The notes beneath the pieces were generated by a model. That model made no database searches. It was not told where the DNA came from and was given only the letters and a program-made list of their open reading frames with translations. The translations under genes and the position numbers were made by a program. This document shows positions 22,904-34,986 of a stretch of 34,986 nt of DNA, one piece after another. Source of the stretch: Pseudoflavonifractor phocaeensis (GTDB lineage: Bacteria; Bacillota; Clostridia; Oscillospirales; Oscillospiraceae); NCBI RefSeq assembly GCF_016901955.1, contig NZ_JACJLC010000026.1, positions 1 to 34,986 of the forward strand. The letters run 5' to 3'. The first letter of the stretch is position 1, and each line of letters starts with the position of its first letter.

Positions 22904-22953
22904 AAAAAGCGCGGCTTACAGGCGGGTTCCACGAACCGTGCCTGTAAGCCGCG
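22904..22953 (-). terminator. Terminator of the STAS/MATE/SpoIIE operon
   Basis: CGCGGCTTACAGGC (22910-22923) pairs perfectly with 22940-22953, with an inner GGTTC/GAACC stem. On the minus strand it ends in TTTTT (A22904-22908). It lies 22 bp beyond the stop of the phosphatase gene. Confidence 0.9.
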
Positions 22954-22975: not shown

Positions 22976-25009
22976 TTACCAGGTCTTTTCCAGGGTCAGG
23001 GAGTTAAAGCCGTTGGCGTGCTCATAGGTCATCCGGTCCATGCTGTTTTTAACCATGTAGATGCCAAGCCCGCCAATGGAGCGGTCCTGCACCGGCAGGG
23101 TCACATCAGGATCGGGATGATCGGTGGGGTCGTAAGGGATACCATCGTCCAGGAAACGGATGATGATCCGGTTGCCGATGATCTCGCAGCCCACCGAGGC
23201 GGTAGTGGCTCCGCTGTACTGGGCGATGTTGGAGAAGATTTCATCGGCGGCTACGTTGACCTGGAAGATGACCTTCTCAGGTACCTGATACCGGGAGAGC
23301 AGGGCTTCCAGGAAGTCGCACACCAGAGGCTGGCTCTCCAGGGTAGGCTCCACCTGGAGCTTCTGACTGGTACCGCTCTCACCCCTGACCTTCAGGGCCA
23401 GCATGGTGATGTCGTCAAACTGGGGAGCCTCATTCACGAAGGCGGTGATGTCCTCACCTACCAGCTGGAGCAGCTGAGTGGGGCTGCCGCCGGGATTGCG
23501 GTTGAGGGCATCCAGCATCCGGTCGGTACCATACAGGACCTCGTTTATATTGGTGGCCTCGGCCACGCCGTCGGTGTAGACAAAAATGGTGTCTCCAGGA
23601 TTGAGCTGGAGCTCATACTCCCGATACCGGGAATTCTCCATACCGGCCAGCACGAAGCCATGCTTATCCTTCAGCAGTGTGAAGGTGTTATCCTCCGCCC
23701 GGTAGATCGCGGGATACTCGTGGCCGGCGTTGGCGGCGATGAGTTTTCCGGTGGAGATCTCATAAATGCCCAGCCACACGGTGACGAACATCTCGGCCTC
23801 GTTGTTCTCACACAGCTGGTTATTAACCTTTTGCAGTACATCCTTGGGGGAGAGGCCGGTTTGGGCGGAGTTTTTCAGCAGGGTCTTTGTGATGACCATG
23901 AAGAGAGCCGCCGGGACGCCCTTGCCAGACACATCGGCGATGACCAGGGCCAGATGATCCTCGTCCACCAGGAAGAAGTCATAGAAGTCGCCGCCCACCT
24001 CTTTGGCGGGGGTCATGCTGGCGTAGATGTCAAACTCAGCCCGCTCGGGGAAGGCGGGGAAGATCCGGGGCAGCATATCCGCCTGGATCTGGGTGGCTAC
24101 GTTGAGCTCAGCGCCGATGCGCTCCTTCTCTGCCGTGATCTCCATAAAGCTGCGGATGTAGGAGATCATGTCCTCCTCCATCTTCCGGAAGGAGTTAGCC
24201 AGCAGTTCCACCTCATCGCCGGTCTTGATGTCCGGTACATTTACCAAGGCGGTACCAGTGGCCAGTTCATCCTGATTGTTCTGGATAAAGGCGCCGGTGG
24301 CTTGGGTGAGCTGATCTATGGGCTTGATCACCTTCCGCCGCAGGATAGTGAGGAAGAGAGCGATAAAGATCACCGTGAGGGCCACCAACAGGGTGCCCAG
24401 CGCCAACAGGAAGGTCTGCTGGGTATTCATGACATCGTTCATGCTGATGTCCGCCATCACATAACCCGCCATGGTACCGTCCTCGTGGAGCACCGGGGTC
24501 ATAGCGGTCATCAGCCAGCCGTAACTGGGATCATGCTGGATAATGGGGTCTACCGGCCGACCGGCCAGAAGATTATCCAGGTTAGCGGCAAACTCACCGC
24601 CAAGGCCGGTAAAGGTACCCAGCGCGCAGTAGCCGCCGTCGCTGTAGGTGCCCCCGGCATCCAGGTCCATGTCGGAGTCGAACAGGAAGGTGACGCCGTC
24701 GCCGTTGGGTCGAACCACGTAGAGGTATTCCACGTTGTTGTTTTCCACCATATCCCGAATGAAATTCTGTGTTTGGTAGTAGGAGTCGTCCATCTCCTGG
24801 GTCTCAAAATAGCGATCCAGATCGGTGGGATCCAACTGGCTGGCCAGGGTGCGGACCAGGTTAGTGCCCAACTGAGTGTAATAATTGTTCATGGTGGTGC
24901 TAAAAATCCGGTAACTCACCGCGATGGACACCAGGCTCAGGGCCACGCTGAGGATGACGATCATGGCGGTGAGCTTTTTCCCAAGGGAGAATCTCACTTT
25001 TGATTTCAT
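22976..25009 (-). CDS. Membrane SpoIIE/RsbU-type PP2C phosphatase fused to an RsbW-like ATPase domain
   Basis: A 677-aa protein. TM1 (about 11-33) and TM2 (about 199-222) enclose a Cache-like extracellular domain, and HAMP (about 222-285) follows. The PP2C-type Ser/Thr phosphatase (about 310-520) has metal ligands in VGGDFYDFF (D341) and IADVSGKG (D359), plus QFDDITML near its end. The C-terminal HATPase_c domain (about 545-677) is of the anti-sigma kinase type and looks intact: N-box ADEIFSNI (N near 594), G1 LDDGIPYDP (near 621) and G2 GGLGIYMVK (near 646). The family phosphatases dephosphorylate STAS antagonists; a STAS protein is encoded two genes upstream. ATG 25009 follows AAGGAG; TTG 25018 is too close. 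Last gene of the operon. Confidence 0.92.
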   Translation of the reverse strand: MKSKVRFSLGKKLTAMIVILSVALSLVSIAVSYRIFSTTMNNYYTQLGTNLVRTLASQLDPTDLDRYFETQEMDDSYYQTQNFIRDMVENNNVEYLYVVRPNGDGVTFLFDSDMDLDAGGTYSDGGYCALGTFTGLGGEFAANLDNLLAGRPVDPIIQHDPSYGWLMTAMTPVLHEDGTMAGYVMADISMNDVMNTQQTFLLALGTLLVALTVIFIALFLTILRRKVIKPIDQLTQATGAFIQNNQDELATGTALVNVPDIKTGDEVELLANSFRKMEEDMISYIRSFMEITAEKERIGAELNVATQIQADMLPRIFPAFPERAEFDIYASMTPAKEVGGDFYDFFLVDEDHLALVIADVSGKGVPAALFMVITKTLLKNSAQTGLSPKDVLQKVNNQLCENNEAEMFVTVWLGIYEISTGKLIAANAGHEYPAIYRAEDNTFTLLKDKHGFVLAGMENSRYREYELQLNPGDTIFVYTDGVAEATNINEVLYGTDRMLDALNRNPGGSPTQLLQLVGEDITAFVNEAPQFDDITMLALKVRGESGTSQKLQVEPTLESQPLVCDFLEALLSRYQVPEKVIFQVNVAADEIFSNIAQYSGATTASVGCEIIGNRIIIRFLDDGIPYDPTDHPDPDVTLPVQDRSIGGLGIYMVKNSMDRMTYEHANGFNSLTLEKTW

Positions 25010-25069
25010 AGGAATCAATCTCCTTCCCTCAACCTGGCTCCAAGGCCAGGGGTACCGGCAGTACTCCTG

Positions 25070-26821
25070 TCAGACCCGTACCACCAGCGTATTGAAGCCG
25101 GCATACCGGCGATAGAAAAATTCCTTGGCCTTGCTCTTGATCATTTTGACGCCGATGGCGTCCAGCCCGGTCCCGTCCTCCAGGCTGATATCGTCGGTGT
25201 TCATATCAAAGGGGTTGAAGGCTTTGGCGCTATCCCGCAGATGAAGGGTGACGGTGCCGTCCTCGTGGGGGACAATGGTAAACTGGATATACCCCCGGCT
25301 GGTGGAAAAAGCCTTGCTGAGGATTACCCCACAAATCTCTTCCACTGCGATGGCGGCAAAATAACTCTGGGTGGGGCTTGCCTCGATGCTTTCCATATAA
25401 GTGGATACGGCCTGACCCATTGCGCCCAAATCAGCGTTTTCGCTGTCCAGAAAGGCGCTGAATACCTGGTTGTCGTCCTTATCCAGGTAGGTCCAGGTGC
25501 CCTTGCGATGGTTGTAGATCCATATGGCCGCCAATGTGGCGGTTTCAGTGCAGGGGTAAACCCACCAGAACACATCCACGCCGCCCACGCTGAGAAGAAA
25601 GCTGAACAGCAGGTAGAAAACAAAGGAGCGGAGCGTAAAGAGCAGATAGCTGGTAAACTCCCGGTTTAGGGCTTGATAGTAGTATGTAAGCACCATATTG
25701 ATCCCGGAGGGAAGAACGCATAGGGCATAGATGCGAATGGCGGTAACGCCCATGGCCATTTCCTCGGCGGTGCGCAGACCAAAGGCGAAGCATACCCATT
25801 GGGGGATACCGAGCAACAAGGCCATCAGCAAAACGATGATCACGAAGGCGGCCTTGAAGGATTGACGGAGGGTGTATCGGATATTGAGCCGATTGTGTTC
25901 CCCCAGGAAGGTGCTTACCATGGGCTGAAGGGCCATGCTGATGGCGTCGTAGGCGGAGGCAGCCACCAGGGCCACGTTGAATACGATACCGAATACCGCC
26001 ACACCCAGCTCACCGCTGATGTTCATGAGCAGGCGGTTGCACACCAGGATGGTGATGAATTGGTATACGTACTGTACCGAGGTAGCAAAGCCGGTCTTAA
26101 AGGAAGTAAACACCGTGGAGAACTGATACTTGCACCAACGGAACCGGAGGCAGCCCCGCTTTTTGATGAAGTGGGTAAGACTGATAAGAATCATCACGGA
26201 GGCGCCCAGAGCGGTGGAGTATACGGAGCCGGCCACGCCCATATCCATCAGCACCACAAAGACATAGTTGAACACAATGTCCAGGGTGTTGCTGGTGACG
26301 AAGGCGGCGGCGGCCAGCTTGGGATTGTTGTCACAGTTGACAAAATAGTAAAATGGTCCCTGACAGAACATAATAGGTACCAAGGTAAGCTGCGCCCGTA
26401 CCAGAGCCTCGCAATTATCCCAAACCTCTGTGCCCGGAGTTCCGGCTCCTAGGAAGGTGAGGACCTGCGGCAGGAAGATGAGGCCTAGCGCGCAGATGAG
26501 GATGTTCAGCAGCAGATCGGTGCACAGCACATTGGAAAAAATGCGATTACCTTCGTCTTGCTTGCCTTCGCTGAGGGCGTTTGCGTAGTGGATGGAGCCG
26601 CCGATAGACAACGAGCAACTGATGGTATTGAACAGCATGTAAACGGGTTGCCCGATGCTGATGGCGGTCATGCCCACCGGGCCGATGGTGTTGCCAACAA
26701 AGATACAGTCGGCCAGTCCTCCGGCGGCGATTCCCAGACAGGAGAGCAGGCTGGGCAGAAAAAAGCGGTAAAAGGACTTCCGTACAAATACAGTTTCCTG
26801 TAGAGATAATTTGAGTTGCAT
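25070..26821 (-). CDS. MATE-type transporter fused to a degenerate anti-sigma-type HATPase domain
   Basis: A 583-aa fusion. Residues 1 to about 445 are a MATE-family multidrug/organic cation antiporter with about 12 membrane helices (for example LADCIFVGNTIGPVGMTAIS and GVAVFGIVFNVALVAASAYD). The C-terminal region (about 455-583) aligns with the HATPase domain of the phosphatase next door: AVEEICGVI with ADEIFSNI, DSAKAFNP with DDGIPYDP, and AIGVKMIK with GLGIYMVK. The N-box Asn that binds Mg is Val499 and the G1 Gly is Ala532, so ATP binding is doubtful. It may be a pseudokinase that binds STAS protein and gates the transporter (inference). ATG 26821 follows AAGGAAGGG. Middle gene of the operon; substrate unknown. 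Confidence 0.9.
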   Translation of the reverse strand: MQLKLSLQETVFVRKSFYRFFLPSLLSCLGIAAGGLADCIFVGNTIGPVGMTAISIGQPVYMLFNTISCSLSIGGSIHYANALSEGKQDEGNRIFSNVLCTDLLLNILICALGLIFLPQVLTFLGAGTPGTEVWDNCEALVRAQLTLVPIMFCQGPFYYFVNCDNNPKLAAAAFVTSNTLDIVFNYVFVVLMDMGVAGSVYSTALGASVMILISLTHFIKKRGCLRFRWCKYQFSTVFTSFKTGFATSVQYVYQFITILVCNRLLMNISGELGVAVFGIVFNVALVAASAYDAISMALQPMVSTFLGEHNRLNIRYTLRQSFKAAFVIIVLLMALLLGIPQWVCFAFGLRTAEEMAMGVTAIRIYALCVLPSGINMVLTYYYQALNREFTSYLLFTLRSFVFYLLFSFLLSVGGVDVFWWVYPCTETATLAAIWIYNHRKGTWTYLDKDDNQVFSAFLDSENADLGAMGQAVSTYMESIEASPTQSYFAAIAVEEICGVILSKAFSTSRGYIQFTIVPHEDGTVTLHLRDSAKAFNPFDMNTDDISLEDGTGLDAIGVKMIKSKAKEFFYRRYAGFNTLVVRV

Positions 26822-26961
26822 AGCTTTGACCCTTCCTTATTGCGTGAAGGGAGAACGCGCTGGGGCGATCCCTTCCGTCTTTTCAGCGCTGCGCACACTT
26901 GTCCGAACAGGGATATCGTATTGATCCCGGAGCGGGGTGCGTGGCCTTGGGAGAATCGAGG
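26822..26961 (-). other. 140-bp gap between the STAS and MATE genes
   Basis: No gene or promoter was found. A short GCGCTG / CAGCGC inverted pair (within about 26857-26890) and a CCCTTC / GAAGGG pair near 26836-26857 could form weak hairpins that set the relative level of the two genes. I see nothing else. Confidence 0.4.
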
Positions 26962-27258
26962 CTATTCGATGGTCAGGATATCCGAGAAGCCAGTGACCTC
27001 AAAGACCTCCATGATCGTCTCATTCACATTGCGAATGACCATGGTGCCCTGGCGGTTCATGGTTTTTTGAGCGGTAAGGATCACCCGGAGGCCGGCGGAG
27101 GACAGGTATTCCAGGGCCTTAAAATCCAGGACCAGGCTGTTGATGCCCGCCAGAGAATCCCGGAGTTCAGCTTCCAATTGAGGCGCGGTGGTGGTGTCCA
27201 GCCGGCCGGTCAGAGCGATGGTCAGAGTTTTACCTTCCACAGATTTGTTGATATCCAT
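26962..27258 (-). CDS. STAS-domain anti-sigma factor antagonist (SpoIIAA/RsbV-like)
   Basis: A 98-aa single STAS domain. LTIALTGRLDTTTAPQLEAEL is split over the first strand and helix, and the phospho-site loop is LEYLSSAGLRV, with Ser53/Ser54 in the place of the serine phosphorylated in SpoIIAA and RsbV. These proteins bind an RsbW-type ATPase when unphosphorylated and release its target; a kinase phosphorylates and a PP2C phosphatase reactivates them. The next two genes supply ATPase domains and a phosphatase. ATG 27258 follows AGGGAGG. First gene of a three-gene operon with no sigma factor gene in it. Confidence 0.93.
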   Translation of the reverse strand: MDINKSVEGKTLTIALTGRLDTTTAPQLEAELRDSLAGINSLVLDFKALEYLSSAGLRVILTAQKTMNRQGTMVIRNVNETIMEVFEVTGFSDILTIE

Positions 27259-27433
27259 ATGATAACCTCCCTAGTTTCCCCCAGTAATCACAGACTGTCA
27301 GGTCGGCCAATATGCCGCAGCCCGGAAATATCCATCTTCGGGCAGTGCCGGGACCACCCCTGAAAGCATCTGGCCTTCTTGTAGCAAGTTGGTTCTTATG
27401 GAAAATAGACCCGCACAAAGAAGGGTATACTGT
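27259..27433 (-). promoter_or_regulatory. Long structured leader of the STAS operon
   Basis: About 175 nt separate the predicted transcription start (about 27433) from the STAS ATG. GCCCG/CGGGC and GGCCA/TGGCC inverted pairs could fold in its middle. It matches no riboswitch class that I recognise, and there is no open reading frame with a ribosome-binding site. Possibly a regulatory leader. Confidence 0.4.
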
Positions 27434-27439
27434 ATAAAA

Positions 27440-27468
27440 ATTATAAACGGTTGCCGGAGGATATGCAA
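27440..27468 (-). promoter_or_regulatory. Sigma-A promoter of the STAS-MATE-SpoIIE operon
   Basis: On the minus strand TTGCAT (27468-27463), 17-nt spacer, TATAAT (27445-27440). Confidence 0.8.
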
Positions 27469-28676: not shown

Positions 28677-30431
28677 TTATACCCGGTAACGCTTCTGCTT
28701 GATATAGGAGCAGTGGAGCAGGGCGTGGGCCTTGGGACCGCCGGGCTCGCCCAGGTAGGTCCGGTAGACGGTCTGTACCACCGGGTTCTCGTGACTGCGG
28801 CGGTACTCCATGTCCTCGTCCTGCTTATACAGGGCAGCGGCACGGAGGGCCTTCAGGTCGGTGAAGTTGCGCACGTCGGCGTGCTGGAGGGGCTGGCCGC
28901 CGCCGTTGATGCAGCCGCCGGGGCAGGCCATAAACTCTACGAAGTCGTACTGCATGGAGCCGTCCCGGATGCCGTCCAGCACCAGCTTCACGTTGTGCAG
29001 GCCGGAGGCCACGCACACCCGCACCGTGCGGTTGGGCAGGGTATAGGTGGCCTCCTTGACCCCCTTCATGCCCCGGACCTCATGGTACTCCAGGGGAGCC
29101 ATGCCCTCGCCGGTGAGCTGCTCCACCACGGTGCGCAGGGCGGCCTCCATCACGCCGCCGGAGGCGCCGAAAATGGTGGCGGCGCCGGTGGAGATGCCCA
29201 GCATCTCGTCAAACTGGCCCTCGGGCAGGTGGTCGAAGAGCATACCGGCCTGGGTGATCATGCGGCCCAGCTCCCGGGTGGTGAGGGACACGTCCACCGG
29301 CATACAGCCGTTGGGCAGCCGCTGCTCCTCCCGGCGAACCTCATATTTCTTGGCGGTGCAGGGCATGATGGATACCACGAAGATATCCTGGGGATCAATG
29401 CCCATCTGCTCGGCGTAGTAGGTCTTCACCAGGGCGCCGAACATCTGCTGAGGCGACTTACAGGTAGATACATTGCGGATCATGTCGGGGGCGTGCTGCT
29501 CCATGTACCGGATCCAGCCGGGGGAACAGGAGGTGATGAGGGGCAGGGTGCCCCCTTCCTTCAGGCGGTGCAGGAACTCGGTGCCCTCCTCCATGATGGT
29601 GAAGTCGGCGGCGGTGTCCACGTCGAACACCTTGTCAAAGCCCAGCCGGCGCAGGGCGGTGACCATCTGGCCCTCCACGTTGGTGCCGATGGGCAGGCCG
29701 AAGCACTCGCCCAGGGTCACCCGGACGGAGGGGGCGGGGCCCACCACCACGTGCTTGGTGGGGTCGGCCAGGGCGGCCAGCACCTTGCCGGTGTCGTCCT
29801 TCTCGGACAGGGCGCCGGTGGGGCAGGCCACGATGCACTGGCCGCAGGAGACGCAGTCCACCTCGTTCAGGTCCCGGTCAAAGGCGCAGCCGATGTGGGT
29901 TGCAAAGCCCCGGTCGTTGGTACCGATGACGCCTACCTCCTGGGTGGCCCGGCATACGGCGGTGCACCGGCGGCAGAGCACACACTTGGAATTGTCCCGC
30001 ACCAGGTGGGGGGCGGATTCCTCGATCTGAGGATACATATTGTCGCTGGCGTACCGCACGGCGTCAATGCCCAGGTCGGCGGCCAGCTGGCGCAGCTCGC
30101 AGTGGGAGTTGCGGGCGCAGGTGAGGCAGTCCATCCGGTGATTGGACAGAATGAGCTCCAGAGTGAGCTGGCGGGACTTGCGGACCCGGTCGGTGTTGGT
30201 AAACACCTCCATGCCCTCGGCCACGGGGTAGACGCAGGAGGCCACCAGGCTCTTGGCCCCCTTCACCTCCACCACGCAGATGCGGCAGGCGCCGATCTCG
30301 TTGATGTCCTTCAGGAAGCACAGCGAGGGGATCTTGATGCCCGCGTTGCGGGCGGCCTCCAGCACCGTAGTTCCGGCGGGAACGGTGACGGGGATGTTGT
30401 TGATGCGCAGAGATACCATCTTTTCGTCCAT
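28677..30431 (-). CDS. hndD: [FeFe] hydrogenase catalytic subunit (HndD type)
   Basis: A 584-aa group A [FeFe] hydrogenase that reduces protons or oxidises H2. The domains in order are a [2Fe-2S] ferredoxin fold (about 5-80; SLCFLKDINEIGACRICVVE), a His-Cys3 cluster site (HRMDCLTCARNSHC), two [4Fe-4S] sites (CVLCRRCTAVCR and CVSCGQCIVACP), then the H-cluster domain. The H-cluster motifs are all present: TSCSPGW, STCKSPQQMFG, MPCTAKKYEVRR and FMACPGGCINGGGQP. The C-terminal small-subunit-like segment is fused. In HndABCD complexes it works with a NuoF-like subunit on NAD(P)H and ferredoxin. ATG 30431 follows GGGAGGGA, 14 bp after hndC. The HydEFG maturases are not in the window. Confidence 0.96.
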   Translation of the reverse strand: MDEKMVSLRINNIPVTVPAGTTVLEAARNAGIKIPSLCFLKDINEIGACRICVVEVKGAKSLVASCVYPVAEGMEVFTNTDRVRKSRQLTLELILSNHRMDCLTCARNSHCELRQLAADLGIDAVRYASDNMYPQIEESAPHLVRDNSKCVLCRRCTAVCRATQEVGVIGTNDRGFATHIGCAFDRDLNEVDCVSCGQCIVACPTGALSEKDDTGKVLAALADPTKHVVVGPAPSVRVTLGECFGLPIGTNVEGQMVTALRRLGFDKVFDVDTAADFTIMEEGTEFLHRLKEGGTLPLITSCSPGWIRYMEQHAPDMIRNVSTCKSPQQMFGALVKTYYAEQMGIDPQDIFVVSIMPCTAKKYEVRREEQRLPNGCMPVDVSLTTRELGRMITQAGMLFDHLPEGQFDEMLGISTGAATIFGASGGVMEAALRTVVEQLTGEGMAPLEYHEVRGMKGVKEATYTLPNRTVRVCVASGLHNVKLVLDGIRDGSMQYDFVEFMACPGGCINGGGQPLQHADVRNFTDLKALRAAALYKQDEDMEYRRSHENPVVQTVYRTYLGEPGGPKAHALLHCSYIKQKRYRV

Positions 30432-30445
30432 GTCCGTTCCCTCCC

Positions 30446-32248
30446 TTACTGCTTGCTGATGGCGTCAAAGCGGCAGTGGTCCATACACGCGCCGCACTTG
30501 ATGCACTTGGACTGGTTGATGATATGGGGGGCCCGCACCGCGCCGGAGATGGCGCCGGTGGGACAGCCCTGGGCGCAGCGGGTACAGCCCTTACACTTGG
30601 TGGGATCCACCACGTACTGGATCAGGGCCTTACACACGCCGGCGGGGCAGCGCTTCTCGTAGATGTGGGCCTCGTACTCCTCCCGGAAGTGCTTCAGGGT
30701 GGAGAGCACCGGGTTGGGGGCGGTCTGGCCCAGACCGCACAGGGCGGACTGCTTGATGTGGTTGCACAGCTCCTCAATGGTATCCAGGTCCTCCGGCTCG
30801 CCGTTGCCCTCGGTGATCTTGGTCAGAAGTCCCAGCAGCCGCTTGGTGCCGATTCGGCAGGGGGCGCACTTGCCGCAGGACTCGTCCACGATGAACTCCA
30901 GGTAGAACTTGGCGATGTCCACCATGCAGTTGTCCTCGTCCATGACGATGAGACCGCCGGAGCCCATCATGGAGCCAATGGAAGCCAGAGACTCATAGTC
31001 GATGGGGGTGTCAATGAGGGAGGCGGGGATACAGCCGCCGGAGGGGCCGCCGGTCTGGGCGGCCTTGAACTTCTTGCCGCCGGGGACGCCGCCGCCGATG
31101 TCCTCCACCACGGTGCGCAGGGTGGTGCCCATGGGCACCTCCACCAGGCCGGTGTTGGTGATCTTGCCGCCCAGGGCGAACACCTTGGTGCCCTTGCTCT
31201 TCTCGGTGCCGATGGCGGCGAAGGCCTCTGCCCCGTGGTTGAGGATCCAGGTGATATTGGCGTAGGTCTCCACGTTGTTCAGCAGAGTGGGCCGGTCAAA
31301 CAGGCCCTTCACCGCCGGGAAGGGGGGACGGGTCTTGGGCTCGCCCCGGTGGCCCTCGATGGAGCGCATGAGGGCGGTCTCCTCGCCGCAGACGAAGGCG
31401 CCGGCCCCCAGCCGCAGCTCCAGGTCGAAGTCGAAGCCGGACTCGAAGATGTTCTTGCCCAGCAGGCCGTACTCCTTGGCCTGGCCGATGGCGGTCTCCA
31501 GCCGCTTGACGGCGATGGGGTACTCCGCCCGGACGTAGATGTAGCCCTGGTGGGCCCCCACGGCGTAGCCGGCGATGGTCATGGCCTCAATGATGGTGTG
31601 GGGGTCGCCCTCCAGCACCGAGCGGTCCATGAAGGCGCCCGGGTCGCCCTCGTCGGCGTTGCAGCAGACGAACTTGACCCCGTCGGGGCTCACCGCGTCG
31701 TGGGTGAACTGCCACTTCAGGCCGGTGGAGAAGCCGGCGCCGCCCCGGCCCCGGAGGCCGGAGGCCTTGATGGTGTCGATGACCTGCTGGGGCGGGATCT
31801 GCTCGGAAAGGATCCTGCCCAGGGCGGCGTAGCCGTCCACGGCGATGTACTCGTCGATGCTCTCCGGGTTGATGACGCCGCAGTTGCGCAGGGCGATGCG
31901 CTGCTGGTGCTTGTAGAACCGGGTCTCGGTGAGGGAGGTAACGGGGCCCTCTTCGCCGACAGCCTTGTTTAGCAGACGCTTGACAATACGCCCCTTGACG
32001 ATGTGCTCGGAGACGATCTCCTCCACGTCCTCCACGGTGACGTGGGTGTAGCAGGCGCCCTCGGGATAGATGGTGACGATGGGGCCCAGCGCGCACAGGC
32101 CGAAGCAGCCGGTACGGACTACCTTGGCTTCCTTGTCCATGCCCTGAGCGACCAGTTGCTTTTCAAATTCCTCAATGATCTTGACGCTGTTGGAGGAAGA
32201 GCAGCCGGTACCAGTGCAGACCAGGATGTGGGAACGAATAAAGCTCAT
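30446..32248 (-). CDS. hndC: NuoF-like NAD(P)H-binding subunit of the hydrogenase (HndC)
   Basis: A 600-aa flavoprotein subunit. It begins with a thioredoxin-like [2Fe-2S] domain (CTGTGCSSSN and TGCFGLCALGP, about 11-55). The NuoF core has the FMN/NADH glycine-rich loop RGRGGAGFSTGLKW, a second nucleotide site in GAGAFVCGEETAL, and a SLBB domain. A [4Fe-4S] site follows in ESCGKCAPCRIGT, and two more at the C-terminus in CKGCTRCAQGCP and CIKCGACMDHC. It should take hydride from or to NAD(P)H and pass electrons to HndD and ferredoxin. ATG 32248 follows GGGAGGG. It is 13 bp from hndB and 14 bp from hndD, clearly one operon. Confidence 0.96.
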   Translation of the reverse strand: MSFIRSHILVCTGTGCSSSNSVKIIEEFEKQLVAQGMDKEAKVVRTGCFGLCALGPIVTIYPEGACYTHVTVEDVEEIVSEHIVKGRIVKRLLNKAVGEEGPVTSLTETRFYKHQQRIALRNCGVINPESIDEYIAVDGYAALGRILSEQIPPQQVIDTIKASGLRGRGGAGFSTGLKWQFTHDAVSPDGVKFVCCNADEGDPGAFMDRSVLEGDPHTIIEAMTIAGYAVGAHQGYIYVRAEYPIAVKRLETAIGQAKEYGLLGKNIFESGFDFDLELRLGAGAFVCGEETALMRSIEGHRGEPKTRPPFPAVKGLFDRPTLLNNVETYANITWILNHGAEAFAAIGTEKSKGTKVFALGGKITNTGLVEVPMGTTLRTVVEDIGGGVPGGKKFKAAQTGGPSGGCIPASLIDTPIDYESLASIGSMMGSGGLIVMDEDNCMVDIAKFYLEFIVDESCGKCAPCRIGTKRLLGLLTKITEGNGEPEDLDTIEELCNHIKQSALCGLGQTAPNPVLSTLKHFREEYEAHIYEKRCPAGVCKALIQYVVDPTKCKGCTRCAQGCPTGAISGAVRAPHIINQSKCIKCGACMDHCRFDAISKQ

Positions 32249-32261
32249 CAGTCACCCTCCC

Positions 32262-32630
32262 TTATTCCGCCGCGCCGATGGTGTACTCTTCCACCACCCG
32301 GCCGTTGACCAGATGCTCGCTGACGATGGAGGCAACCTTGTCGGGGGTCATCTTCACGTAGGTGACCTTCTCCTGGCCGGGCACATAGACCTCCACAATG
32401 GGCTCCAGACGACACACGCCGATACAGCCGGTCTGGGATACGGTGACGTTTTGCAGGTTGCGCTTATTGACCTCTTCCAGCAGAGCGTTGAGAACGGGAC
32501 GGGCCCCGGCAGCGATGCCGCAGGTAGCCATGCCTACTACCACACGGATGCGGTCGTCACCAGAGTCGCGCAGATCGATCTGCCCACGCATCCGGTCACG
32601 AATGGCCTGCAGTTCCGCAAGACTTTTCAT
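32262..32630 (-). CDS. hndB: Thioredoxin-like [2Fe-2S] subunit HndB
   Basis: A 122-aa thioredoxin-fold ferredoxin. The cluster cysteines are in VGMATCGIAAGARPV and SQTGCIGVCRLEPIVEV, the usual spacing of HndB/NuoE C-terminal domains. It is an electron carrier within the hydrogenase complex. ATG 32630 was chosen over longer readings because it follows GAGGAG, overlaps the stop of the ATP-binding gene as ATGA, and gives the family-like MKSLAELQAIRDRM start. It is homologous to the N-terminal domain of hndC, so the operon carries related [2Fe-2S] folds in three subunits. Confidence 0.93.
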   Translation of the reverse strand: MKSLAELQAIRDRMRGQIDLRDSGDDRIRVVVGMATCGIAAGARPVLNALLEEVNKRNLQNVTVSQTGCIGVCRLEPIVEVYVPGQEKVTYVKMTPDKVASIVSEHLVNGRVVEEYTIGAAE

Positions 32631-33193
32631 GTTTTCATCTCCTCGTTTTCTCGTAACAGAAGTTCCTGTTCCTGTAAATAGTCTCTGATCCAGAGGATGA
32701 CCTCGGGCTCCGCCAGAGAGATGTCCGGGCCCAGTTGGGCGTGGAGCTCGTCGGTGTCCAGTAGGAAGTGCCGCCCGTTCACCGTGTGGCGGTAGCACAG
32801 GTGGAGGTCGGGATTTCCCTGGAGCAGAAAGGTGATCGTCGTACCCATATCTCCCACGGGGGGGCAGTCAATGTGCTGGGCGGAAAACACGGCGGTAACG
32901 GTGGTGCCCACGCCCTCGGTGCTGTCGATGGACATAACGCCGCCGGTCTGCTCGGCCGCCATGCGCAGCAGAGGCAGCCCCAGCCCCATTTTCCGGGTGG
33001 TGCGGGTGGTGGTAAAGGGATCGCTTACCTGAGCCAGCAACTGGGGGCTCATGCCCCGGCCGTTGTCGGCAATGGTGAGGGAGATCTGTCCCTCACCCTC
33101 TGACAGGCTGATATCCAGCCGGTTGGCCTGGGCCGCGGTGGAATTCTGGGCAATGTCCAGGGCGTGAAGGGCGATTTCTTTCAAATCAGACAC
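32627..33193 (-). CDS. Stand-alone HATPase_c protein in the hydrogenase operon
   Basis: A 188-aa GHKL ATPase. The histidine kinase ATP-binding fold is complete: N-box HALDIAQNSTAA (N17), G1 IADNGRGM (D43) and G2 KMGLGLPLLRMAA (about 69-80). There is no HisKA domain or phospho-accepting His helix. The last 75 residues form a separate region ending in a helix (VILWIRDYLQEQELLLREN). From general knowledge such a protein accompanies hnd/hyd operons in several Clostridia, with no known function; a regulatory kinase or an assembly role are both open. Its stop overlaps hndB by ATGA. The start at 33193 follows ACGGGAGGTG. A 134-bp GC-rich gap separates it from hndA. Confidence 0.88.
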   Translation of the reverse strand: MSDLKEIALHALDIAQNSTAAQANRLDISLSEGEGQISLTIADNGRGMSPQLLAQVSDPFTTTRTTRKMGLGLPLLRMAAEQTGGVMSIDSTEGVGTTVTAVFSAQHIDCPPVGDMGTTITFLLQGNPDLHLCYRHTVNGRHFLLDTDELHAQLGPDISLAEPEVILWIRDYLQEQELLLRENEEMKT

Positions 33194-33327
33194 CTCCCGT
33201 TGTCACGCTGCGGCGGCTCCGCAACGCGCGGCATTCCTCCGTCTCGGGCTGGTTTTGGGCCGCACAGCAGCCCGGCGCTCGCCCTCGCTACGGTTCATCC
33301 GCGCTGCTCCGCACGCCTGCGTGCTTC
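33194..33327 (-). other. GC-rich spacer inside the hydrogenase operon
   Basis: These 134 bp have no gene, although all other junctions in the operon are 0-14 bp. Short inverted pairs include GGGCTG/CAGCCC (about 33248-33275), GCGG/CCGC near 33203-33214, and GCACGC CT GCGTGC (about 33311-33324). It may be an inserted repeat, an RNA-processing site, or a stability hairpin after hndA. No T-run follows the hairpins. Confidence 0.5.
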
Positions 33328-33822
33328 TTACTTGTACATATCCAGGATGGGGCCAACCTGGTCAGGGGTGAGACGGCCGTATACGTCGTTATTAACCATC
33401 ATGACCGGGGCCAGACCGCAGGCGCCCACGCAGCGGCAGGAATCCAGGGAGAACTTGCCGTCAGGTGTGATCGTGCCGGGGGTGATCCCCAGCTTCTGCT
33501 CCACCGCGTTGAGGATAGCGGCGGCACCCTTGACATAGCAGGCGGTGCCCAGACAGACAGAGATCTGGTATTTACCCTTGGGATTCAGGGTAAACTGGGC
33601 ATAGAAGGAGGCGACGCCGTACACCTCAGACAGGGGGATATCAAGGCCTTCGGCGATGATGATCTGTACCTCTTCAGGGAGGTAGCCGAAGATCTCCTGG
33701 GCGGCCTGGAGTACAGGCATGGTGGCGCCCGGCTGTCCCTTGTGCTGGGCGATCACCTGGCGCAGGCGTTCTTCCTGCTCCGGTGTACCCCGGTAAGGAA
33801 CAATGGTCTTGCAGTTTGGCAT
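33328..33822 (-). CDS. hndA: NuoE-like [2Fe-2S] subunit HndA
   Basis: A 164-aa NuoE/24-kDa-like subunit. The N-terminal helical bundle (about 10-80) includes MPVLQAAQEIFGYLPEEV, and the thioredoxin-fold domain carries the [2Fe-2S] cysteines in VCLGTACYVKGA and SCRCVGACGLAPVM. The EVYGVASFYAQFTLNPKG block is the NuoE signature. It transfers electrons from the HndC flavin. ATG 33822 follows AAGGAAGG. The upstream reading (to 33957) would include the leader and is rejected. First gene of the operon, with a sigma-A promoter 146 nt upstream. Confidence 0.95.
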   Translation of the reverse strand: MPNCKTIVPYRGTPEQEERLRQVIAQHKGQPGATMPVLQAAQEIFGYLPEEVQIIIAEGLDIPLSEVYGVASFYAQFTLNPKGKYQISVCLGTACYVKGAAAILNAVEQKLGITPGTITPDGKFSLDSCRCVGACGLAPVMMVNNDVYGRLTPDQVGPILDMYK

Positions 33823-33967
33823 GAACTTGTCCTTCCTTTCTGGATTGGTTTGGCCGGCGCGTTCCGCCGACGTGAAAAAGGGAGCCGCCTGCCACAGGCC
33901 CACCGGCATGTTCCGCAGATCACGAGACCGCGGTGGAAGGGACAGACGGCTTGGCAACTTTGTGAAA

Positions 33968-34208: not shown

Positions 34209-34922
34209 TCAGGGCACCTTCCCTGACAGCCAGTCCAGAACGGCCTGGGGGGTGCGATCGGGCAGATCCATGCTGTGCTCCGCGCCCCACACCTGCTCCA
34301 GGTAGTGGGCGTCCGAGCTGGTGATAAGCCGCAGGCCAGCCAGGTCGGGCCGCTGGGAGAAATCGGGGGGGCAGTTGTGGGAGAGCTCGGCGGTAGCAAA
34401 CCTCAGATCGGGGTCCCACAGGCCAAGCACCCCCAGAAGGGAGTAGGAAGGCCGGTCGATGTGGGCGGGAACGGCGACCCCGCCGAACTCTGCCACCAGT
34501 CCGGATACCTCATAGATGGGAATATCGGTACTGCCTGCCAGGAATCGGTCATCCTCCCCCAGGATCTGATCCTCGTCCCCCATACGGATCTGGGGACCAA
34601 ACAGGTCGCGCTTGTTGGGGATCTGGGGCAGATGGGCGGAGACATAGTCCTCAAAGGGAAGAGCGGCCTCGGGGCTGGGGAAAAGACAGACCACGTGGAT
34701 GTCCTCCTGGGTGCACAATTCCATACCGGCAAGGGCCAGCAGGCCATGTCCGGCGGCGGCCCGGCAGAAAGGGGCGCAGTTGCCGGTGGTGTTATGGTCG
34801 GTGAGGGCCACGATCTCCAGCCCCGCCAGGGCGCACATAGCCGCCAGGTTGGCAGGGGTCATGTCCTCGCTGCCGCAGGGCGACAGGCAGGAGTGAAGGT
34901 GGAGGTCATAGTAATATTTCAA
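34209..34922 (-). CDS. PHP-domain phosphoesterase
   Basis: A PHP-domain protein of about 237 aa, a metal-dependent phosphoesterase fold. Metal-binding motifs are visible: DLHLHSCLSPCG at the N-terminus, ALTDHNT, GMELCTQEDIHVV, PAHIDRPSY and TSSDAHYLEQ. The substrate is unknown; relatives hydrolyse nucleotides or phosphorylated sugars. The start is uncertain. TTG 34922 gives the usual MKYYYDLHxHS opening; GTG 34931 is in frame, and the frame is open to the window edge. Similar genes accompany the hnd/hyd operon in other Clostridia from general knowledge. Here it has its own terminator before the hydrogenase promoter, so it belongs to the preceding transcript, whose first genes lie outside the window. 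Confidence 0.88.
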   Translation of the reverse strand: MKYYYDLHLHSCLSPCGSEDMTPANLAAMCALAGLEIVALTDHNTTGNCAPFCRAAAGHGLLALAGMELCTQEDIHVVCLFPSPEAALPFEDYVSAHLPQIPNKRDLFGPQIRMGDEDQILGEDDRFLAGSTDIPIYEVSGLVAEFGGVAVPAHIDRPSYSLLGVLGLWDPDLRFATAELSHNCPPDFSQRPDLAGLRLITSSDAHYLEQVWGAEHSMDLPDRTPQAVLDWLSGKVP

Positions 34923-34986
34923 GAGAAACACCGGCTTTCCGGGCAGAGTGGGGCAGGATTGCCTGTCGCCCGTCCGCGCCGCAGGC

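Follow-up and report, generated by a model that had tools for sequence, protein, structure and literature searches.

The stretch from position 1 to 34,986 of contig NZ_JACJLC010000026.1 of Pseudoflavonifractor phocaeensis (called the window hereafter) carries a minus-strand operon encoding a STAS protein, a MATE transporter ending in a SpoIIAB/RsbW-like HATPase domain, and a membrane PP2C phosphatase joined to a second domain of this type. Systems built of such components, as SpoIIAA-SpoIIAB-SpoIIE and RsbV-RsbW-RsbU, control sigma F and sigma B, respectively, by partner switching. On balance, and with moderate confidence, the operon is read as a partner-switching module that has the transporter as output. 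Many Clostridia-type bacteria have exporters with such a degenerate tail, often next to the genes of a phosphorylation switch, and this points to a switch that acts here on a transporter rather than on a gene set. The HATPase domain fused to the phosphatase is probably the kinase of the STAS protein, while the one fused to the MATE protein is likely a non-catalytic pseudokinase that serves as receiver.

In the proposed scheme, the RsbW-like domain of the phosphatase, which is a separate protein in close relatives, would phosphorylate the STAS protein at Ser53/Ser54. The membrane phosphatase, under a signal coming from outside or from the membrane, would strip the phosphate. Unphosphorylated STAS would then dock on the degenerate receiver and alter transport, more likely switching it on; the direction is a guess, made by analogy with the activation of SiaD by SiaC. 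The distinction of a kinase from a receiver gives the gating idea, advanced when the operon was first described from the sequence, a clearer division of labour.

The three genes make up a single run in the open reading frame (ORF) list of the window, between positions 22976 and 27258. The original prediction of a three-gene minus-strand operon thus stands, except for its end, set at 27468, as the genes stop at 27258; Pfam places STAS, MatE, SpoIIE and HATPase_c_2 on the proteins to which they were then attributed. The STAS and MATE genes are 140 bases apart, and 60 bases separate the MATE gene from the likelier ATG of the phosphatase gene. The terminator-like repeat listed in Table 1 is absent from the output of the terminator scanner, because its loop exceeds the length that the scanner permits. 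Promoter and terminator scans yielded sites no more numerous than in shuffles, and an Rfam scan at gathering scores detected tRNAs and nothing else.

MATE-receiver fusions constitute a distinct clade of MATE proteins, present in the family, order, class and phylum of the window genome. A search for MATE proteins with a C-terminal HATPase domain, proposed along with the original prediction, revealed fusions well outside this genome. Matches to the receiver profile were found in 25 of 300 genomes sampled in the family (E<=1e-4), 77/394 in the order (E<=1e-6), 47/391 in the class and 21/398 in the phylum (E<=1e-10 in both), all upper bounds for the MATE fusion, because free kinases and other fusions are counted and the samples overlap. 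The close relatives and the four samples together rule out that the fusion is an artefact or the peculiarity of one genome. The close relatives are seven loci, corresponding to four Flavonifractor records and three other uncultured records. The MATE core of the window protein includes two MatE repeats (88.5 bits; cut-off 24.9). In trees, 19 ordinary MATE proteins (14 of the window genome) branch wholly apart from 106 fused MATE cores (support 0.996). All 114 MATE-fused C-termini similarly fall in one clade (support 0.985), along with seven others, which are three ABC-ATPase fusions, three degenerate phosphatase-fused copies and one MATE gene split in two. Asp38, presumably involved in cation coupling, is conserved in 92 of the 106 fused cores. 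In three loci (L066, L083, L159; here and below, L numbers denote fetched stretches) MATE core and receiver are found on two consecutive ORFs, which may be real split genes or frame breaks.

Stretches were fetched around the majority of the likely fusions, and annotated with profiles built for this analysis. Of the 108 fusion genes counted below, one is the window gene, 5 come from close relatives, the family search contributed 21 and the wider searches 81. The near copies L027 and L061 were dropped before neighbourhood, motif and same-run counts; L032 and L033, close to each other, were both kept. The family search gave 27 matches, one being the window's own, one lying inside L061, and 25 leading to stretches L061-L085. 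Among the latter, 22 carry the fusion on a single ORF, it is divided between two ORFs in L066 and L083, and L075 encodes a SpoIIE-HATPase protein. The fusion adjoins the profile match in L076 and L077, the match itself being a switch-type gene. At the level of order, class and phylum, stretches were taken mostly for matches whose open frame was about 560-680 residues long, picked before their neighbours were viewed. L178, L180, L218 and L219 turned out to encode SpoIIE-HATPase proteins, and L221-L227, taken as other matches, carry no MATE fusion.

The two HATPase domains of the operon are unlike. N-box, DxG and lid motifs have an established role in ATP binding in the GHKL fold. They are intact in the domain on the phosphatase; in the receiver, EEICGV replaces the N-box with its Asn, RDSAKAF replaces DxGxxF, and the ATP lid has no GG. 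The same split is found in relatives. The full set, made of N-box Asn, DxG Gly and ATP-lid glycines, is present in 0/108 MATE-fused domains versus 68/72 kinase-type domains (26/29 of the SpoIIE-fused, 30/31 of the free, and 12/12 of the STAS-APH-fused ones). The lid GG is retained in two of the 108 MATE-fused domains. When all 114 MATE-fused domains of the fetched loci are considered, 113 keep the Glu of the N-box, 59 its Asn, and 33 the Gly of DxG. The MATE-fused domain is denominated receiver and the phosphatase-fused domain kinase because of these differing counts, which rule out that the two are equal kinases. The two had been treated as alike in the original prediction, and this view is abandoned.

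Taken alone, the HATPase_c_2 match on the window MATE protein is weak (E 0.0037, under the Pfam cut-off). MatE and HATPase_c_2 are both matched at E<=0.01 in the window protein and in the 26 relatives aligned with it (27/27). The receiver profile, compared to 177,635 distinct PDB sequences, finds its best matches in SpoIIAB (E 7e-4), and aligns to the profile of free RsbW-like kinases with 98.7% probability. Judged by these comparisons, the match is no chance match. The receiver tail is 73-87% identical among close relatives, and invariant residues remain in proteins with identity as low as about 20%. The kinase domain is encoded in close relatives by a separate gene of 136-166 residues.

Fusion genes are often found close to switch genes, a term used for genes encoding STAS, SpoIIE or kinase-type domains. 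For 54 of the 108 fusion genes a STAS gene lies within 7 kb; the count is 67 for SpoIIE, 53 for a kinase-type domain, 79 for at least one of the three and 36 for the complete set. Without L076 and L077, both found via the neighbouring switch-type gene, the figure for any switch gene is 77/106. A switch gene flanks 0/19 other MatE genes of the window genome; this control is limited to one genome, with several short flanks, and the MATE model missed two genes among the 19 (L009, L010), their stretches also being devoid of switch genes. The co-occurrence of MATE-HATPase proteins with STAS and SpoIIE genes, envisaged at the outset, is thus confirmed, and a chance neighbourhood is ruled out, within the reach of a one-genome control (79/108 versus 0/19). 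In 67/107 loci a switch gene shares with the fusion an unbroken same-strand run.

Genes are arranged as STAS, MATE-receiver, phosphatase, phosphatase and kinase in L028, L029, L031-L033 and L061, and a gene encoding an LPG_synthase_C aminoacyltransferase often comes next in these close relatives. The window version seems, as that of L027, to have lost one phosphatase and to have the other fused to the kinase. A gene encoding a winged-helix and AAA ATPase protein (about 690-890 residues; 2/10 checked by Pfam) is located near the switch operon in ten loci, upstream in L028, L029, L031, L032, L033, L062, L069, L085 and L229, and downstream in L203; none was seen in the window operon.

The STAS protein of the window is anti-anti-sigma-like (Pfam STAS E 8e-17), and scores over the cut-off of TIGR00377 (ant_ant_sig). 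Ser53 and Ser54, in the motif YLSSAG, are the predicted phospho-acceptors; the assignment is assumed by analogy with SpoIIAA. Both positions are invariant in 84/84 STAS domains detected across the fetched loci, two near-duplicate loci counted in. Most of these domains (62/84) belong to proteins shorter than 200 residues.

The phosphatase domain hosts the motifs GGDFYD, ADVSGKG, TDG and FDDIT, which serve metal binding in PP2C enzymes. Its relatives in PDB are 3es2, 6k4e and 3t91, and SpoIIE is matched in all 20 aligned phosphatases, the window's included. The protein scores 63.3 bits against the NCBIfam SiaA equivalog, whose cut-off is 700. An extracellular signal acting through the Cache-like region is plausible, and that region, located between two hydrophobic stretches read by eye, is a possible extracellular sensor.

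The window genome has 19 matches to sigma-70 region 2, and none is on the window contig. The statement of the original prediction that no sigma factor gene is present agrees with this search, which also rules out a sigma factor lying just outside the operon on the same contig. Among the matches listed for 45 genomes, no SigB/F/G-type gene was spotted by eye at less than 13.9 kb from a fusion; the search for other sigma classes covered the window genome only. Elsewhere, this genome features a canonical operon of the SpoIIAA-SpoIIAB-SigF type, a further STAS gene and two more short genes matching HATPase_c_2. The further STAS gene (C238:37561-37851) is on the same contig as an RsbW-like kinase gene with intact motifs (C238:69407-69793), about 32 kb apart.

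Enzymes encoded next to the fusions hint at what is transported. An enzyme gene lies in the same-strand run with the fusion in 44/107 loci, as established by clustering of neighbours and Pfam analysis of representatives. Nonribosomal peptide synthetases (NRPSs) were found in 11 loci (2 checked by Pfam). Where checked, they consist of two adenylation domains, a condensation domain and a reductase end, which is the order of pyrazinone or peptide-aldehyde synthetases; some other NRPS genes are cut by the end of the stretch or contig. Aminoacyltransferases of the LPG_synthase_C type are encoded in the run in 9 loci (7 checked), GH3 ligases in 4 (3 checked), members of two GNAT clusters in 4 and 3 (1 checked each), a formyltransferase in 2 (1 checked) and a methyltransferase in 2 (1 checked). 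STAS-APH or STAS-APH-HATPase proteins are encoded in 11 loci (5 checked, among them L171, L172, L195, L234, L236), and STAS-Condensation proteins in 3 (all 3 checked). NRPS-made pyrazinones are mentioned in the consulted portion of PMC6694145. Small amide or acyl products are the common theme, and an exporter of such products is therefore the simplest reading. Since the operons of many relatives include an enzyme that would make a small amino-acid-derived or acylated metabolite, the cargo is most likely of that kind, and regulated small-molecule export is the likely purpose of the operon.

L171:7452-9041, L172:8810-10405 and the other members of their cluster combine STAS with a phosphotransferase of the APH type and an RsbW-like kinase that is intact, and in seven loci a member of a PHP-type gene cluster is found in the same stretch as these STAS-APH-kinase proteins. 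In L214:855-2447, L217:4287-5891 and L220:4752-6344 an N-terminal STAS domain, with its serines kept, is fused to an NRPS condensation domain. In L217 and L220 the latter genes lie immediately upstream of the fusion; in L214 an NRPS gene comes in between.

Several observations weigh against a transporter gated by partner switching. The N-box Asn persists in 57/108 MATE-fused domains, and its loss tracks the presence of a nearby kinase weakly (31/51 versus 22/57; Fisher p 0.033, uncorrected for relatedness). The ATP lid, degenerate in the receiver, lies near the STAS contact in SpoIIAB. No switch gene was found within 7 kb of 29/108 fusion genes. In 21/107 loci neither an enzyme nor a switch gene is present, and an NRPS is alone in the run in 8 loci. 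The dCache_1 match scores 22 bits, versus a curated cut-off of 45, and is weak throughout, only four phosphatases out of 20 aligned, the window's among them, showing it at E<=0.01. The operon of the window includes no enzyme, and the single LPG_synthase_C match of the genome is on another contig; the cargo argument therefore rests on relatives. Trees of STAS and receiver are correlated after removal of the MATE core (partial r 0.25; 10 of 300 permutations gave values as high), and those of STAS and MATE core are not after removal of the receiver (-0.02). The receiver correlates at least as strongly with the SpoIIE phosphatase (0.25) and the kinase (0.29), and the signal is unspecific for this reason; it lends the scheme faint, weak support. 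L033, the second gene in L232 and the STAS domains of fused proteins were left out of this comparison.

Four other explanations were considered. STAS and receiver could form a phosphorylation-controlled tether, which brings a biosynthetic enzyme to the exporter so that the product is passed straight out, and the interaction would then serve docking rather than gating. The STAS-enzyme fusions found in run with the MATE fusion (STAS-APH, with or without HATPase, in 11 loci and STAS-Condensation in 3) and the many kinds of enzymes sharing these operons fit this idea. It is nonetheless rather unlikely, since the window STAS is a lone domain in an operon that has no enzyme, most STAS domains are in short proteins, and a tether has no obvious need for the two phosphatase genes of close relatives.

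A transporter acting as sensor, whose transport state sets the amount of STAS held by the receiver, the output being a sigma factor or enzyme elsewhere, is more doubtful still. A STAS-binding domain deprived of kinase motifs could work as a STAS sink, and the genome has a SigF-type operon and additional STAS and HATPase_c_2 genes elsewhere. However, the membrane phosphatase is already a likely sensor in the operon, no SigB/F/G-type gene is near a fusion among the matches listed for the 45 genomes, and the operon enzymes better suit an effector role. The receiver may be a vestigial tail or a plain stability domain, as the loci lacking switch genes and these enzymes nearby, about one fifth of the total, could suggest. 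The sequence conservation of the tail and its strong co-occurrence with switch genes make this highly improbable. Least credible is an active anti-sigma-like kinase by which the transporter phosphorylates STAS, as the retention of the N-box Glu in nearly all MATE-fused domains and of the Asn in about half of them is countered by the absence of the full motif set from all 108, by the lid GG being left in two, and by the loss of Asn, DxG Gly and lid GG in the window.

Domains related to the receiver, and degenerate as well, are found at the C-terminus of ABC-transporter ATPases. Nine such proteins, of about 360 residues except for one 1154-residue frame in L268, were identified at eight loci. 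Pfam detects HATPase_c_2 in one of the three scanned (E 0.0039). The STAS, SpoIIE and intact kinase genes of L224 have one of them on either side, in an operon that reads as an amino-acid importer (SBP_bac_3, BPD_transp_1). Switch genes are also present in the L191 and L261 stretches, and a HATPase gene in L264; none was found in those of L262, L263, L265 and L268. Tentatively, and with less confidence than is given to the module of the window, the anti-sigma/STAS pair may be a general plug-in for metabolism and transport in Clostridia-type bacteria. Receivers would be mounted on MATE exporters and on the ATPases of ABC importers, and STAS on enzymes (APH kinase, NRPS condensation) or left alone, and one sigma-free switch might quickly assemble or gate both synthesis and export of signalling-type small molecules.

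Table 1. Features of the operon in the window, and receiver-bearing ABC ATPases at other loci
Feature	Position	Strand	Remarks
Terminator-like inverted repeat and T run	22910..22953	-	Just beyond the last operon gene; strong; read directly from the sequence
Membrane PP2C phosphatase with C-terminal kinase-like HATPase	22976..25018 from TTG (680 residues), or 25009 from likelier ATG (677 residues)	-	Pfam SpoIIE, HATPase_c_2; weak dCache_1, HAMP
Predicted RsbW-like kinase domain on the phosphatase	22988..23347	-	Pfam HATPase_c_2 E 3e-16; DEIFSN (intact N-box), DDGIPY, GGLGI
SpoIIE/PP2C phosphatase domain	23384..23965	-	Pfam E 3e-50
dCache-like region	24425..24901	-	dCache_1 E 1e-4
MATE-HATPase fusion	25070-26821	-	583 residues
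SpoIIAB/RsbW-like putative receiver domain (residues 436-583 of the fusion)	25073..25516	-	Catalytically degenerate by motifs
MATE transporter core (residues 1-435 of the fusion)	25517..26821	-	Pfam MatE E 5e-25
STAS protein	26962..27258	-	98 residues
ABC ATPase-receiver proteins	L224:3423-4514, L224:8686-9777, L191:820-1899, plus L261-L265, L268

A second GHKL gene of the window, of a different class, encodes a HATPase_c protein (32627-33193; Pfam E 1e-17). This gene, and one encoding a PHP-like protein by reading (34209-34931), adjoin genes that read as a hydrogenase cluster (28677-33957).

Sigma-factor control is the best-known role of partner switching; in the papers cited below, the outputs of other kinds are cyclic-di-GMP enzymes, the control of biofilms and, as a proposal, a chemoreceptor. 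Through a large transporter family equipped with a pseudo-anti-sigma receiver, a signal would act on export directly and post-translationally. Since NRPSs, GH3 ligases and aminoacyl- or acyltransferases are frequent operon partners, the choice of small molecules that these bacteria release may be under the control of the switch; few handles on this question are available today.

A transporter bearing the anti-sigma half of the pair was not met in the openly licensed literature searched. By title and abstract, no MATE protein with an anti-sigma-like domain was found among the matches listed, which is not proof of absence, and the consulted parts of PMC9239204, PMC8256260, PMC6694145 and PMC10120452 describe no such fusion. 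Other pieces of the picture are already known, so far as the consulted text of these reports goes, as partner switching with a non-sigma output (SiaABCD, SypA, and others proposed in PMC9239204) and transporters carrying STAS domains (SLC26/SulP). Systems of the SpoIIAA/RsbV type, treated in the available portions of PMC10120452 and PMC8256260, share with the window operon a STAS protein with a phospho-serine (here predicted), a SpoIIAB/RsbW-type kinase domain and a PP2C phosphatase. Here, in contrast, no sigma factor was found nearby, the kinase is fused to the phosphatase, and a separate domain, SpoIIAB-like but degenerate and fixed to a transporter, would be the target. SiaABCD of Pseudomonas aeruginosa, according to the sections consulted of PMC7647112 and PMC8457831, similarly combines a PP2C phosphatase, a kinase and a STAS-like protein with a non-sigma output, SiaC activating the enzyme SiaD through direct binding. 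That output is however a diguanylate cyclase bound via a stalk, and not a transporter with an anti-sigma-like receiver. For the STAS/STAS-kinase/PP2C sets of Campylobacterota, too, it is neighbourhood evidence that points to a PP2C, there with a periplasmic sensor, and a STAS kinase acting on a non-sigma target, but the targets proposed in the part of PMC9239204 consulted are c-di-GMP enzymes or a chemoreceptor, and not transporters. SypA-SypE of Vibrio fischeri, as outlined in the accessible text of PMC10120452, is alike in that STAS phosphorylation controls a non-sigma output; STAS is there the downstream component, and no transporter fusion is described in that text. SLC26/SulP proteins are membrane transporters that also bear one half of a STAS/anti-sigma pair, but in the excerpts consulted of PMC8256260 they are anion transporters with the STAS half at the C-terminus, whereas the window protein is a MATE transporter with the anti-sigma-like half. 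MATE multidrug and toxin exporters have the same two MatE repeats, and the fusions differ from them for the extra receiver, the clade apart from the 19 ordinary MATE proteins compared, and the conserved partner-switch neighbourhood.

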